Shown piece after piece: positions 26,574-31,685 of a stretch of 64,000 nt of DNA; the stretch's first letter is position 1; the number at the start of each line of letters is the position of its first letter. The stretch is from the NCBI RefSeq assembly GCF_029360775.1, contig NZ_JARKMZ010000001.1:124001-188000 (forward strand). Direction: 5' to 3'. Below the pieces are notes generated by a model that saw only the letters and a program-made list of their open reading frames with translations, was not told the origin of the DNA and made no database searches. Origin of the DNA: Daejeonella sp. H1SJ63 (lineage in GTDB: Bacteria; Bacteroidota; Bacteroidia; Sphingobacteriales; Sphingobacteriaceae). The position numbers and the translations under genes are program-made.

Positions 26574-26639
26574 TCAGGCAGGCTTCATTTATTAATCCTA
26601 TTTCTCTCCTCTAATTGTTTTTGCATATCTCAAATCCTG

Positions 26640-26738
26640 TAAGTTTGACCGTTAAATTGGCCTTATACACCGCTGACTAAAAACCATTCTCCCAAATCAT
26701 TCTGCAGAATCTAAATTCAGATATCGATTGACCGGTCA
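26640..26738 (+). promoter_or_regulatory. Possible promoter/operator region of secretion operon
   Basis: The 248-base gap before the HlyD gene contains a perfect -7 box TAAGTTTG (26640-26647) with a TTTTTG 16 bases upstream, and a 10-base palindrome TGACCGGTCA at 26729-26738 followed directly by the near-box TGAATTTG. Either could start the operon; I cannot decide. Confidence 0.35.
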
Positions 26739-26821
26739 TGAATTTGCGATTCAGAATTGTTACGATCCAGGTAATTCTATGAGGATCAATTGTGGGTTGA
26801 GAAGTTTTTAAATGATTGAAT

Positions 26822-28024
26822 ATGTCTGAATTACTTGATTCTGATAATAATAATTATCAATATTTTTCTTCAACTAAGTATGGTTTAGGCAGGAATAGCC
26901 ACATTATTTATTGTGTTTCTGTAGTGGCTGTCATTTTCACTTTCGCCCTCTTACCTTTCATTGTAATACAGATAAGTGTAAACGGTAGGGGAATTATACA
27001 GTCAGCTATTGAAAGAACTGAATTAGTAACATCAGTGAGTGGCAGGATAATTCAGATCCGGATGAAAGATAATCAGACTCTTTTACGTGGAGATACACTT
27101 TTGATTATCGATTCATCGCTATCCAGACAACAGGGCAAAATTATAAATATGCGATCTGCTTTATTAAAGCAGTATTTGTATGATATAGCACAAATTTTGA
27201 AATATGCTGAACTATCAGATAAAGAAAGTAAAACTCCTGATTTGAGAACAGAACAGTATAAAGCAACCTGGCAACAGTTTTTGCAGGAGTCTGAGGAGCA
27301 TCAGCTGGTAATCAGGCAATCAGAGCGTGTGTTAAACCGTTACACTATCCTTTATAAAACTGGAGCATTGACTACTGCTGAGTATGAGAAATTTAGTTTT
27401 GACTATGATCAGGCGGTTTCGAGATATTATCTGTTGGGGAAAAGGTACAGATCGCAGCTGGAAATGGAATCCGGAGCTCACCGTAAGGAACTAAGTGAAC
27501 TGATTGAGCAGGAAGCTGAATTAGCTGAAGAAAAAGAACTATTTATTCTAAAATCTCCTGTCAGTGGTTCATTGCAAAATCTTTCGGGACTACAGAATGG
27601 ATCTTATGTTTTTGCCAACCAAAAAATTGCAGAGATTTCTCCGGATACTCATCTGATAGCCTTTTGTTATGTCAAACCGGCTGACATAGGATTAATTAGA
27701 AAAGGGCAATCCGTAAATTTTCAGATCGATGCGTATAATCATAATCAATGGGGTCTGTTATCCGGAAAGGTAATTGATATTTCTGACGATGTCATTTTTG
27801 CAAATTCGGGTGAAGCAGTATTCAAAGTGAGGTGCAGCCTCGATAGTGATCATATGAAATTAAAAAATGAATACAGAGGATTTCTTAAAAAGGGAATGAA
27901 TTTTACTGCCCGTTTTATGGTAGCGGAGCGAACCTTATTCCAGCTGTTATATGATGATGCAGAAAATTGGCTTAATCCAAATTTGAAAGAAGCAAATCAC
28001 ATTGATACCTATCGCAAATTATGA
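26822..28024 (+). CDS. HlyD-family secretion adaptor (membrane fusion protein)
   Basis: 400 residues from ATG 26822 (TTG at 26816 is in frame but poorer). One membrane helix at about residues 29-52, then a biotinyl-lipoyl-like segment VTSVSGRIIQIRMKDNQTLLRGDTLLIID split by a coiled-coil hairpin rich in Gln, Glu and Lys (about 100-240), then KSPVSGSLQNLSGLQNGSYV and a C-terminal beta domain. It would bridge the inner-membrane exporter encoded next to an outer-membrane channel. Its stop overlaps the exporter start in ATGA, so the two are translationally coupled. No TolC-like gene is in the window. Confidence 0.9.
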   Translation: MSELLDSDNNNYQYFSSTKYGLGRNSHIIYCVSVVAVIFTFALLPFIVIQISVNGRGIIQSAIERTELVTSVSGRIIQIRMKDNQTLLRGDTLLIIDSSLSRQQGKIINMRSALLKQYLYDIAQILKYAELSDKESKTPDLRTEQYKATWQQFLQESEEHQLVIRQSERVLNRYTILYKTGALTTAEYEKFSFDYDQAVSRYYLLGKRYRSQLEMESGAHRKELSELIEQEAELAEEKELFILKSPVSGSLQNLSGLQNGSYVFANQKIAEISPDTHLIAFCYVKPADIGLIRKGQSVNFQIDAYNHNQWGLLSGKVIDISDDVIFANSGEAVFKVRCSLDSDHMKLKNEYRGFLKKGMNFTARFMVAERTLFQLLYDDAENWLNPNLKEANHIDTYRKL

Positions 28025-30189
28025 ATATTAAGGTAAAGCAACGAGATATTAGTGATTGTGGTGCGGCTTGTTTGGCCTCTGTTACAGGGTTTTATAAGTT
28101 GAATGTATCGGTTGCCAGAATCAGGCAGTATGCAGGTACAGATCATAGAGGGACAAATGTTTCCGGTATGATCGAAGCTGCGAAACGACTTCGATTAGAT
28201 GCCAAAGGTGTCAGGGGCTCATGTGAAAGCCTTTTTAAAATACCAGTTCCAGCTATTGCGCATGTCATTATCAAAGAGCAGCTTCAGCATTATGTAGTCA
28301 TATATCAGGTTAAGCAAACTTCAATTACCGTGATGGATCCGGCAGATGGGAAAATGCATGTGAAAGATCATGATGATTTCAACAAGGAATGGAGCGGAGT
28401 TTTGATTTTGCTTAGTCCAAACGATGAATTTGCTCCGGGTAATCAAAAAGTAAGTCTGTTAAGTCGGTTCAGACTTTTGTTATATCCTCATAGGGCTATT
28501 TTAATTCAGGCTCTTTTCGGGGCAATGATTTATACACTGTTAGGGCTTTCGATGTCAATTTTTGTTCAGAAAATTGTTGATTTTGTATTGGTTGATGGCA
28601 ATAGAAATTTGCTTAACCTGATGAGCGTTGGAATGATTCTCATTCTGTTACTTCAGGTTTTTATCGGTACACTGAAAAGTATATTTATTTTTCGAACGGG
28701 TCAAATGATCGATGCCCGACTAATTTTAGGCTATTACAAGCATTTACTCAAATTGCCTCAGCAATTTTTTGATACGATGCGTGTGGGTGAGATTACGTCA
28801 AGAATAGGTGATGCTGTTAAGATAAGAATATTCATAAATGATGTGTCCATCAATATGGTGGTAAACTTCTTCATGCTTGTATTTGCATTCGCATTAATGT
28901 TTACCTATTACTGGAAACTTGCCTTGTTTATGTTGACTATCATTCCATTATATGTAATTATCTATCTGCTTAGTAATAAACTTAACAAAAAAGTTCAGCG
29001 TAAACTGATGGAAAATGCTGCAGAACTTGAATCACAACTTGTTGAGAGTTTGAATGCTGTTGGTACAATCAAACGTTTCAGACTGGAGGAACATGCAAAT
29101 CAGAAAACAGAAGACCGGTTCATAAATCTATTAAATACGGTCTACAAGTCAGGCCTTAACTCTGTTTTTTCCGGCACATCTACAGAGTTGGTTTCCCATG
29201 GATTTACAATCATGCTTCTTTGGTTAGGCTCAGGTCTGGTACTTGAGCAACAGATCAGTCCCGGAGAATTACTTTCCTTTTATACTCTGATAGGATATTT
29301 TACAAATCCGGTTTCCTCATTCGTCGGGATGAATAAAACAGTTCAGGATGCATTAATTGCATCCGACAGGCTTTTTGAAATCATGGATATCGAGCAGGAG
29401 AATGAAGAACATAAAGTTGAACTGGTCGGGTCTAATCCGGGAGATATCCGGTTTGCAGATGTCTGCTTTCGCTATGGCACAAGGGTCAGCATCTTTGACA
29501 AGCTGAATTTAGAGATTTCTCGAAGTACATTGACTGCTATTGTTGGAGAAAGTGGTTCAGGAAAATCTACATTGATGTCTATCCTGCAAAATATTTACCC
29601 TATTCAGAGCGGCAACATATTTATTGGTGAATATTCTTTAAAGTATATCAGTAATAGCTCACTTCGGAGGATGGTTGGTGTAGTTCCTCAACGTATTGAT
29701 CTTTTTGCCGTAAATGTGATTGAAAATATAGCTATTGGAGATGATTCGCCGAATATGAGTAAGATATTGAGTATTTGTAAACGATTGGGAATGGTTGAAT
29801 TTATTGAACAGCTGCCACAAGGGTTCAATACTCAGCTTGGTGAGAATGGCGCAAACATATCCGGCGGACAAAAGCAGAGAATAGCCATAGCACGTGCTAT
29901 GTATCGTGATCCTGAAATTCTGATCTTGGATGAGGCAAGTTCATCACTGGATCCGGTTTCAGAGAGGTATGTTCAGGATACAATTGATTTTCTACTCGCG
30001 GAAAACAAGACAGTAATTATAATCTCTCATCGCCTTAGCAGCATACAAAAGGCCGGAAAGATTATCGTTCTAAAAAACGGACAGGTAGCAGAAGAGGGTA
30101 AACATGCTGAGCTGATTGCTTTTAGGGGAGAATATTTTCGATTATGGTCTCAGCAGATACCAATGGAATTTCAGGGTTTAATAGATTGA
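28021..30189 (+). CDS. Peptidase-containing ABC transporter (C39 protease/ABC exporter)
   Basis: 722 residues, full bacteriocin-exporter layout. The C39 peptidase at residues 1-125 has Q7, C13 (SDCGAACLAS), H90 (HYVVIY) and D106 (MDPADG), all catalytic positions. A six-helix ABC membrane domain follows (about 150-440), then the ATPase with Walker A VGESGSGKST, signature ISGGQKQR and Walker B ILILDEASS. PCAT proteins cut the leader after a Gly-Gly motif and export the mature peptide. Two such Gly-Gly peptides are encoded within 1 kb downstream, which gives a direct functional match. Confidence 0.95.
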   Translation: MNIKVKQRDISDCGAACLASVTGFYKLNVSVARIRQYAGTDHRGTNVSGMIEAAKRLRLDAKGVRGSCESLFKIPVPAIAHVIIKEQLQHYVVIYQVKQTSITVMDPADGKMHVKDHDDFNKEWSGVLILLSPNDEFAPGNQKVSLLSRFRLLLYPHRAILIQALFGAMIYTLLGLSMSIFVQKIVDFVLVDGNRNLLNLMSVGMILILLLQVFIGTLKSIFIFRTGQMIDARLILGYYKHLLKLPQQFFDTMRVGEITSRIGDAVKIRIFINDVSINMVVNFFMLVFAFALMFTYYWKLALFMLTIIPLYVIIYLLSNKLNKKVQRKLMENAAELESQLVESLNAVGTIKRFRLEEHANQKTEDRFINLLNTVYKSGLNSVFSGTSTELVSHGFTIMLLWLGSGLVLEQQISPGELLSFYTLIGYFTNPVSSFVGMNKTVQDALIASDRLFEIMDIEQENEEHKVELVGSNPGDIRFADVCFRYGTRVSIFDKLNLEISRSTLTAIVGESGSGKSTLMSILQNIYPIQSGNIFIGEYSLKYISNSSLRRMVGVVPQRIDLFAVNVIENIAIGDDSPNMSKILSICKRLGMVEFIEQLPQGFNTQLGENGANISGGQKQRIAIARAMYRDPEILILDEASSSLDPVSERYVQDTIDFLLAENKTVIIISHRLSSIQKAGKIIVLKNGQVAEEGKHAELIAFRGEYFRLWSQQIPMEFQGLID

Positions 30190-30191
30190 AA

Positions 30192-30449
30192 ATGAAATTA
30201 TTGGAACAAATTGAACGTATTAACCGATTGCATGAGTTGATAAAGCATCGGCGCACTGGCACTCCAAGTCAGTTGGCCCGCAGACTTAATCTCTCAACTT
30301 CTATGGTTTATAAACTGATGGATGAGCTCAGGTTAAGGGATGTTCCGGTTGAGTACTCGCGGCAATTGGGTACTTATTTTTATAGCAGAAATTTTCAAAT
30401 GAGAATATCCATAGAATTCAGACCTCTGACAGAGGAAGAAGAAAATTGA
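30192..30449 (+). CDS. Small HTH DNA-binding protein
   Basis: 85 residues from ATG 30192, three bases after the exporter stop; an in-frame ATG at 30144 would overlap the exporter and adds nothing conserved. The middle part RTGTPSQLARRLNLSTSMVYKLMDELR is a typical winged or plain helix-turn-helix, followed by EYSRQLGTYFYSRNF, as in HTH_11-like regulators. Placed between the exporter and the peptide genes, it most likely controls the bacteriocin promoter directly downstream. No ligand domain is present, so what it senses is not visible. Confidence 0.75.
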   Translation: MKLLEQIERINRLHELIKHRRTGTPSQLARRLNLSTSMVYKLMDELRLRDVPVEYSRQLGTYFYSRNFQMRISIEFRPLTEEEEN

Positions 30450-30467
30450 TTTTTTTCTGTATGAAAG

Positions 30468-30498
30468 TTGAATTGAAAAAGCTCAGGCTATAGTTTTT
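30468..30498 (+). promoter_or_regulatory. Probable promoter of the leader-peptide genes
   Basis: TTG at 30468-30470, 20 bases, TAGTTTTT at 30491-30498, one mismatch to TAnnTTTG. It lies in the 153-base gap before the first peptide gene and would give a leader of about 100 bases. Confidence 0.45.
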
Positions 30499-30537
30499 TT
30501 ATATTTAAGATTAGTCAATTTAATACATCGCGATAAA

Positions 30538-30549
30538 TGTTGTGCAACA
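30538..30549. promoter_or_regulatory. Inverted repeat TGTTGTGCAACA, possible operator
   Basis: TGTTG-TG-CAACA, a 5-bp dyad with a 2-base centre. It lies between the predicted promoter and the first Gly-Gly peptide gene and is a natural candidate for binding by the small HTH protein encoded upstream. Confidence 0.35.
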
Positions 30550-30602
30550 AAGGCAGAGACCGAAAAGCCTGAATAGAGTAGGTGAACTAAAATTGAAATA
30601 AC

Positions 30603-30791
30603 ATGCAAAATTCAAATTTAATTGAGATTGACAAGCTGGAAGCTATGTCAATCAACGGAGGTAATATTGTACCATGGTCGGCTGCAATGAGAGCTACCTG
30701 GTGGGGTGCTCTTATCTTCTATGCCATGGAAAATTATGAAGACCTAAAGGGAGGTGCCGTTAGTGCTTATCATGATTACTACAAAAAATAG
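30603..30791 (+). CDS. Double-glycine leader peptide 1 (bacteriocin-like precursor)
   Basis: 62 residues. The first 20 end in EAMSINGG, a leader of the type cut by C39 peptidases; the predicted mature peptide has 42 residues, starting NIVPWSAAMRATWWGAL. It has three Trp, a hydrophobic central segment, an acidic patch (MENYEDLKGG) and a basic, Tyr-rich end. No Cys, so no disulfide or lanthionine. It has the size and look of class II bacteriocins. A second Gly-Gly at 50-51 is unlikely to be used. I know no named homologue. Confidence 0.8.
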   Translation: MQNSNLIEIDKLEAMSINGGNIVPWSAAMRATWWGALIFYAMENYEDLKGGAVSAYHDYYKK

Positions 30792-30825
30792 ATGCTGTGA
30801 AACCATCATGATTTTGCTAAAACCT

Positions 30826-30861
30826 GCAAGGGGTATGATTATCAAATCACGATCACCTTGC
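30826..30861. other. Imperfect hairpin between the two peptide genes
   Basis: GCAAGG (30826-30831) pairs with CCTTGC (30856-30861), with GATT/AATC pairing inside. It lies in the 113-base space between the two leader-peptide genes and could attenuate or process the transcript. No T-tract. Confidence 0.25.
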
Positions 30862-30904
30862 CAGTAGGCAGATTCATTATCGTTAAAAAACAAAAAATAA
30901 ACAA

Positions 30905-31117
30905 ATGGAAAAGTTAAATGTAAAAGACCTCGGGATGCAGGAGATGAATTCTGAGGAAATGTATTCTTGTACTGGTGGGGAAACACCGGGAATGAATACT
31001 AGTTTAGCCAATGATATAGGCTATATGCTTGCCTATGGCTTTTTCGGAGCTATTGATATGGTTAGAGCATTTGGTGCAGGTGCTGCGAAAGGGCAAAAAC
31101 TCCGTTTTCAGGGTTGA
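30905..31117 (+). CDS. Double-glycine leader peptide 2 (bacteriocin-like precursor)
   Basis: 70 residues. Leader of 25 residues starting MEKLNVKDLGMQEMNSEEM and ending CTGG, which closely fits the ComC/BlpC/PlnC-like bacteriocin signal of Bacteroidota. The predicted mature peptide of 45 residues contains a hydrophobic helix with small residues spaced as GxxxG/AxxxG (YGFFGAIDM, FGAGAAKG) and a basic end KLRFQG. GxxxG motifs are known from the paired peptides of class IIb two-component bacteriocins. The single Cys lies in the leader. It is followed by a strong terminator 5 bases after the stop. Confidence 0.82.
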   Translation: MEKLNVKDLGMQEMNSEEMYSCTGGETPGMNTSLANDIGYMLAYGFFGAIDMVRAFGAGAAKGQKLRFQG

Positions 31118-31121
31118 TTGG

Positions 31122-31153
31122 CATCGGGCAGATTAATCTGCCCGATGTTTTTA
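31122..31153 (+). terminator. Strong intrinsic terminator after peptide 2
   Basis: A 26-base perfect palindrome (CATCGGGCAGATT then its complement, 31122-31147), best folded as an 11-bp stem with TTAA loop, followed by TTTTATT. It would stop most transcripts before the CPBP gene, which begins 35 bases later. Confidence 0.92.
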
Positions 31154-31181
31154 TTATATTAAATCGTTATTGATAAAAGAT

Positions 31182-31685
31182 ATGAGTACCAAACGGTTGA
31201 TTTCTTTTGAGCCACCTTCATTTATTCAAAGGTTGAACACTTTTAAACTACTTTTGATTGTATTGCTTGCTAATCTTATACTTTCATCTGTCTTTGCCAT
31301 ATTGAGACAGAAATATGGCTATTCAATGGACCCCAAAATGCTCAATTTTGATAGTGTATTAGAAGAATTTATTGTTGTAGTTGTAGTTGCACCTGTATTC
31401 GAAACGGTTGTTTTTCAATACTTTATGATCACATTGATGTTGTTTCTGGCTCAGAGGTTTTTCAAAAGGGATTTAGCTGCATTTGCGATAATACTGCCTG
31501 CAATTTGTTTCGGATTTAGTCATACTTATAACAATCTGTATGTGTTAAACACGTTTTTAGCTGCATTGATGATCAATTACTTTTATATCCTGGTGAAATC
31601 AAGAAACCAGAATGCATTTATATTAACAGTAATTCTTCACGCACTCTATAATTTTTCAGTATTTGGTCTGAAGCAAATGGCCTGA
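31182..31685 (+). CDS. CPBP-family intramembrane protein, probable bacteriocin immunity protein
   Basis: 167 residues from ATG 31182 (TTG 31170 in frame is weaker). Four or five membrane helices. APVFETVVFQ stands at motif 1 (canonical EExxxR), FGFSHTYNN at motif 2 (FxxxH) and HALYN at motif 3. The first Glu and both His remain; the second Glu and the Arg are replaced. CPBP (Abi/CAAX) proteins include known self-immunity factors of class II bacteriocins such as PlnI/PlnL. Position directly after the peptides supports immunity; a processing role is the alternative. Confidence 0.78.
   Translation: MSTKRLISFEPPSFIQRLNTFKLLLIVLLANLILSSVFAILRQKYGYSMDPKMLNFDSVLEEFIVVVVVAPVFETVVFQYFMITLMLFLAQRFFKRDLAAFAIILPAICFGFSHTYNNLYVLNTFLAALMINYFYILVKSRNQNAFILTVILHALYNFSVFGLKQMA

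Follow-up and report, generated by a model that had tools for sequence, protein, structure and literature searches.

A probable two-peptide bacteriocin-like island with a pseudoknotted RNA leader in Daejeonella sp. H1SJ63

A 64,000-nucleotide stretch of the Daejeonella sp. H1SJ63 genome (contig NZ_JARKMZ010000001.1, positions 124,001 to 188,000, or C1:124001-188000; genome size 3.65 Mb), which we refer to in its entirety as the window, carries a compact gene cluster. Its genes, all on the + strand, encode an HlyD-type adaptor, a C39 peptidase-ABC (ATP-binding cassette) exporter, a small helix-turn-helix (HTH) protein, two precursor peptides with leaders ending in Gly-Gly (GG), and a CPBP membrane protein, in that order (Table 1). 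An imperfect dyad and a match to the Rfam RNA DUF805b separate the HTH gene from the first precursor. We regard the cluster as probably a class II (unmodified, GG-leader) bacteriocin-like two-peptide island with an RNA leader. A sequence-only reading had already proposed a two-peptide bacteriocin island here; its exporter, GG leaders, CPBP partner, paired peptides and island status are all retained, its argument from GxxxG contacts proved weak, and it had overlooked the fixed insertion site, the RNA, the dyad, the terminator and the GG tails of HTH relatives. The gene structure it described is in place, including the ATGA overlap of the HlyD and exporter genes (the best HlyD start being the ATG at 26822) and two short open reading frames (ORFs) of 62 and 70 codons followed by the CPBP gene, except that the HTH start codon lies two bases past the exporter stop, rather than three.

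Table 1. Features of the island; positions are those of the window.
Feature	Position	Strand	Basis
HlyD-type periplasmic adaptor (400 aa)	26822..28024	+	PF13437 46 bits, cut-off 22.2; ATGA overlap with next gene
C39 peptidase-ABC exporter (722 aa)	28021..30189	+	PF03412, PF00664, PF00005 over cut-off; Q7, C13, H90, D106
Small winged-helix HTH protein (85 aa), tail-less family form	30192..30449	+	HTH_11 24.5 bits, just below cut-off 25
Imperfect dyad TGTTGTGCAACA, candidate operator, abuts RNA	30535..30546	+	Position read off sequence; pattern at genus and HTH-linked sites
DUF805b RNA (RF02914), 5' leader of peptide 1; predicted hairpin and pseudoknot	30550..30584	+	41.6 bits, gathering 35.6; covariation
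GG precursor 1 (leader 20 aa, core 42 aa; 62 codons)	30603..30791	+	GG leader, pN/pS, homologue alignment
GG precursor 2 (leader 25 aa, core 45 aa; 70 codons)	30905..31117	+	GG leader, pN/pS, homologue alignment
Intrinsic-terminator-like hairpin between precursor 2 and CPBP gene	31120..31149	+	13 pairs, then T-rich tail
CPBP (Rce1-like) membrane protein, putative immunity (167 aa)	31182..31685	+	PF02517 40.4 bits, cut-off 22.4

The GG leaders of the two precursors exceed chance, since a strict GG-leader rule is passed by only four of the 157 ATG-started ORFs of 38-130 codons in the whole window, two of the four being these neighbours. The predicted mature peptides lack Cys, as the sequence-only reading had stated. 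Compared with a relative, G109, the proportions of non-synonymous and synonymous differences (pN/pS) are 0.27/0.63 (peptide 1) and 0.26/0.70 (peptide 2), such that both look like translated genes under purifying selection; the peptides nonetheless diverge more than the exporter (0.14/0.70) or the HTH protein (0.10/0.72). No Pfam or NCBIfam model names either mature peptide, in line with the sequence-only reading, which had named no matching bacteriocin: searches for a named two-peptide family returned nothing for peptide 1 and only sub-cut-off leader matches for peptide 2, and assignment to a named family was rejected. A homologue of peptide 2 at locus L092 does exceed the cut-off of the TIGR01847 bacteriocin signal model (16.8 versus 15.7 bits). 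The spacer between the precursors is 113 nt in the window, with a weak hairpin at 30850-30870, and ~5 nt in G109. At four loci (L046, L045, L091 and L044) a tiny leaderless ORF, MKKYxK..IWF..FY(W/G)(D/E)DMxRGFRDGYNS, lies between the HTH gene and peptide 1; it resembles the motif at the C-terminus of peptide 1 homologues, is broken in L042 and does not occur in the window.

The exporter, which accounts for the sole C39 match in the genome, combines its peptidase, membrane and ABC domains in a single chain, and the four catalytic residues named by the sequence-only reading are all present. Its closest solved structure is PCAT1 (4ry2, E 3.5e-164, full-length match), and its nearest named relatives are from metagenome-assembled genomes labelled Sphingobacteriales, Daejeonella and others. 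The CPBP protein, a member of PF02517 by its profile score, is the putative immunity protein of the producer. Among 11 aligned CPBP proteins E74, T75, Q79, H114, H153 and N157 are invariant; E74, H114, H153 and N157 make up an E/H/H/N set that we take to be catalytic-type. The first motif of Rce1-like CPBP proteins is EExxxR; all 11 aligned proteins read ETxxxQ instead.

Homologues of the island were sought in two groupings of genomes, which we call the genus and the family. Each peptide was searched separately against 201 family genomes. Besides the window, only G109 has both with high confidence, with weaker matches to peptide 1 in G144, G124, G092 and G104; other matches, at E values up to 1, were mostly noise. 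The exporter is found at 60% identity or more in 13 copies, in 12 of the 20 genus genomes. Seven of these copies are accompanied by a window-type peptide pair, always in the same order, with one to three CPBP genes, although in G092 the peptides and exporter are on different contigs; both copies in G086 (2/13) have a different GG pair. This synteny comparison, which the sequence-only reading had suggested, thus avoids the outcome it named as fatal, absence of both peptides wherever the exporter is conserved, because pairs recur at exporter copies. We also compared the insertion site across genus genomes, using an upstream vWA-type gene as anchor. The vWA-type gene is followed by HlyD in eight genomes and directly by ftsB in seven (and by eno too where the stretch reaches that far), indicating that the exporter unit is an island at a fixed chromosomal site, which stands empty in those seven. 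In G086, ftsB lies ~1.35 kb downstream of the vWA-type gene with no HlyD between them, and the state of the site is undecidable in G139, G067, G129 and G124. A plasmid origin of 30192-31685 was rejected, as PLSDB gave no match. A sigma-70 scan gave no signal (18 sites versus 20.2 in shuffled sequences).

Just upstream of peptide 1, the DUF805b match exceeds the Rfam gathering score. The RNA is over threshold in ten genus islands. Eleven genus genomes have the HTH gene, and of these G086 alone lacks the RNA. In the family it occurs in 196 of 301 genomes at an E value of 1e-5 or better, 166 of them over threshold, with none in 14 controls; in the phylum, 80 of 395 have it at 1e-7. A single Sphingobacteriaceae genome may contain up to 21 copies, and the RNA precedes many secreted or effector-type genes. 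The window genome itself has a second, sub-threshold DUF805b-like site (L101, G000:C20:65656-65688, 27.4 bits), which precedes a secreted-type ORF. The Rfam consensus includes only a 4-bp stem. We examined 110 of the best-scoring family sites (L108-L217), a sample that leans to strong matches because it was chosen by score, and assessed covariation in 100 distinct parsed sequences, having dropped L205 and others off the core pattern. Three of the four stem pairs vary, mostly covarying. The loop base before CC and the tail base after GG form a Watson-Crick pair in 92 of the 100 sequences (shuffles: mean 38, maximum 52), and this pair has changed on both sides in 24 of 54 equal-length sequences; the two flanking C-G pairs are invariant because the parse demanded them. 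Judged from this covariation, DUF805b is an H-type pseudoknot of 4 + 3 pairs, the variable pair being A-U in the window. DUF805b was reportedly described originally by Weinberg et al. in 2017, and the pseudoknot may already be part of that description. Our literature search found no paper that mentions DUF805b or joins the RNA with bacteriocins.

The genes behind the RNA connect it to exported peptides. Of the ORFs that come first after the RNA, 24 of 103 have a strict GG leader, as compared with 13 of 473 other small ORFs in the same stretches, with 64 of the 103 first ORFs falling within the small-ORF size range; the start codon is 21-24 nt past the motif at 52 of the 103 sites. Outside the family, 30 loci were taken, and a loosely GG-like first ORF was found at 5 of the 25 that could be parsed. 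Within ~10 kb, 16 of 20 GG-type RNA sites have a C39 exporter and nine have an HTH homologue, versus none of 20 other RNA sites in either case. The 20 GG-type sites were picked from ~27, two being GG by eye only; one of the stretches extended to one side alone, and one of the controls was short. Pfam matches among the first ORFs include DUF6520 (13), subtilase (8) and class II bacteriocin (6), together with single matches to thiol-activated cytolysin, MACPF, LodA, tectonin, PixA and M57. TmcA_N and Rep_N, with four matches each, were taken for chance.

The dyad, defined as G[TC]TG-N0-2-C[AG][AG]C directly upstream of the RNA, marks the HTH-linked sites. It is present at all ten HTH-linked family sites (nine loci) and all ten genus sites, at 2 of 17 other GG sites and at 1 of 75 non-GG sites; any p-value for this distribution is not independent, because the pattern was written after the sites had been inspected. 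We adopted this specific pattern because generic palindromes with arms of at least 5 were a weak test of an operator, and palindrome length was dropped for that purpose: such palindromes occur at 8 of 10 HTH-linked sites, 6 of 10 genus sites (one row misparsed), 4 of 11 GG sites without HTH, none of 5 other GG sites and 16 of 77 non-GG sites. Outside the genus, the HTH stop codon is 43-47 nt before the RNA core in six of nine strict-pattern loci. We suggest that the HTH protein may bind the dyad as its operator. Two GG sites bear the dyad without an HTH gene within 10 kb; of these, G228 has one elsewhere on the same contig, and G298 has none at 1e-5. Upstream of the dyad, HTH-linked family sites have a conserved inverted repeat, CACTAC-T7-GTAGAGTG, and TAATTTAG, possibly promoter parts, which overlap the HTH 3' end outside the genus.

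The AlphaFold2 model of the HTH protein has three helices and a two-strand wing (pLDDT 91.8), from which we confidently predict a winged-helix fold; a fold search of the PDB returned nothing at E 0.001 or better, the best match being NiaR at 0.038. Homologues (query P0006, threshold 1e-10) occupy 62 places in 57 of the 301 family genomes, and we examined 50 of these places. The proteins of the window and nine congeners end right past the fold. Outside this tail-less clade, 36 of 40 homologues (L318-L357; also L270-L287) have a GG or AG motif beyond tail residue 15, usually LxxxExxxI(N/S)(A/G)G, and behind it a short peptide, mostly hydrophobic. In 25 of 30 loci the end of the ABC gene is ~130 nt or less before the HTH gene. 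Of 19 loci not belonging to the tail-less clade, 8 have two GG ORFs after the HTH gene (a count that leaves out L309, L311 and L334). A position-specific scoring matrix built from 33 peptide leaders has its best window exactly on the tail GG or AG in 29 of 33 tailed HTH proteins. With the Gly columns included, 21 of 43 HTH proteins score above the 99% level of the shuffles; once the two Gly columns are removed, only 11 of 43 do so. A conserved DNA element, CACTAC-T7-GTAGAGTG, overlaps the last residues of the HTH protein and is read in two frames in two clades, and hence these residues may be conserved as DNA rather than as protein. From their tails, the HTH relatives look as if they were exporter substrates themselves, the window protein having no tail. 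A wider scheme, which we hold tentatively and consider possible rather than probable, is that the winged-helix regulator beside the C39 exporter in Sphingobacteriaceae is an exporter substrate, that export or cleavage of its GG tail is coupled through the dyad to transcription of DUF805b-led peptides, and that the window clade has lost the cargo and kept the regulator, dyad and RNA.

How the window island might work follows from its parts. A single leader RNA would encode both precursors. The HTH protein at the dyad before the RNA would probably set transcription, and the DUF805b pseudoknot in the 5' leader may tune expression of precursor 1, as their association suggests. Judging from what is known of these families, and from the catalytic residues and leaders seen, the C39 domain would cut the precursors after GG, and the ABC/HlyD pair would export both cores. 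The two cores would probably work together against related bacteria, with the CPBP protein shielding the producer. Several observations weigh against this reading. Two of the 13 exporter copies (G042 and G119) have a single GG peptide, G144 has peptide 1 only, up to the contig end, and G067 has no GG peptide; the exporters of G144 and G067 contain an internal stop. The strong terminator-like hairpin parts the CPBP gene from precursor 2. By our count the cores have net charges of ~0 and +1 and are thus nearly neutral, whereas typical two-peptide bacteriocins are cationic. Lastly, a GxxxG hallmark is missing from peptide 1: by eye, the contacts invoked by the sequence-only reading come down to one motif in peptide 2 (GAAKG), which is kept only in G109 and not in the five more distant peptide 2 homologues.

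Alternatively, the precursors could be two independent one-peptide bacteriocins with a common exporter and RNA leader. We consider this unlikely, given that pairs keep the same order across the seven genus islands, although the single-peptide islands and the lack of a conserved GxxxG in peptide 1 favour it. Somewhat less likely still, in our estimate, is that the peptides are signals, or biofilm or autolysis effectors, and not toxins, with the CPBP protein processing or sensing them. Non-killing roles for GG peptides are reported in the available parts of studies of Synechococcus biofilms (PMC4997328) and gonococcal autolysis (PMC11798529), most HTH relatives have GG cargo of pheromone size, and the leaders of peptide 2 homologues weakly match the pheromone model BlpC (L092: 23 bits; cut-off 70). 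Toxin-immunity function better fits the one to three CPBP genes beside divergent pairs and the faster divergence of the peptides than of the exporter and HTH protein, and there is no histidine kinase among the ORFs of the window island. That the island is a decaying remnant, inactive in this strain, is very improbable: the HTH tail of relatives has been lost and two congeners have exporter stops, but the window genes are intact, with low pN relative to pS in the HTH and exporter genes.

If this account is correct, an orphan Rfam cis-element is tied to exported peptides, and a pseudoknot is added to the DUF805b model. The layout of C39-ABC exporter, HTH gene, dyad, DUF805b RNA and GG peptides would then serve as a signature for finding unnamed peptide islands in Bacteroidota, and the tailed HTH proteins would represent a simple circuit, with a DNA-binding protein and a secreted peptide in one polypeptide. 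The other genes led by the RNA, including those matching bacteriocin models, cytolysin, MACPF, LodA, subtilases and DUF6520, hint at a wider regulon of secreted effectors.

The core parts of the island are ordinary; its layout appears to be new, with a GG pair behind a pseudoknotted RNA leader, a putative operator for the HTH protein and a regulator family whose other members resemble exporter substrates. Class IIb bacteriocins (models for lactococcin G and lactobin A/cerein 7B) likewise have two adjacent unmodified GG precursors, a GG exporter and an immunity-type gene; the window has the adjacent precursors, but its peptides reach no named family, do not both have or keep GxxxG motifs, and belong to a Gram-negative host. 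Bacteroidetocins, as described in the accessible portion of PMC6671954, are Bacteroidota GG peptides of ~42 residues with an ABC transporter/peptidase, and thus of similar size and setting, but contain two or more Cys and in most cases are accompanied by a thiol oxidoreductase gene. Neither window core has Cys, which led us to reject this identity, and no thiol oxidoreductase gene is seen in the island. According to the parts of PMC12648078 available, class II candidates occur in Bacteroidota too, so that peptides of this kind in the phylum are not in themselves a new idea; the passages of PMC12250211 contain no GG-leader work. CPBP/Abi bacteriocin immunity proteins share PF02517 and a position adjoining the peptides, and the window-type CPBP proteins differ in the ETxxxQ form of motif 1. 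PCAT exporters (PCAT1 and ComA) match the window exporter over the full length of the C39, membrane and ABC domains (4ry2, 8hf7) and in their catalytic residues, whereas the window exporter has an HlyD partner and a Gram-negative host. The window RNA is a match to DUF805b (RF02914) above the gathering score, to which this analysis adds the predicted pseudoknot and an association with GG peptides. The leaders of NHLP and Nif11 precursors derive from folded proteins. The tailed HTH relatives would similarly put a folded domain ahead of a GG site, with the difference that this domain is a predicted winged-helix DNA-binding one, retained without cargo in the window clade.
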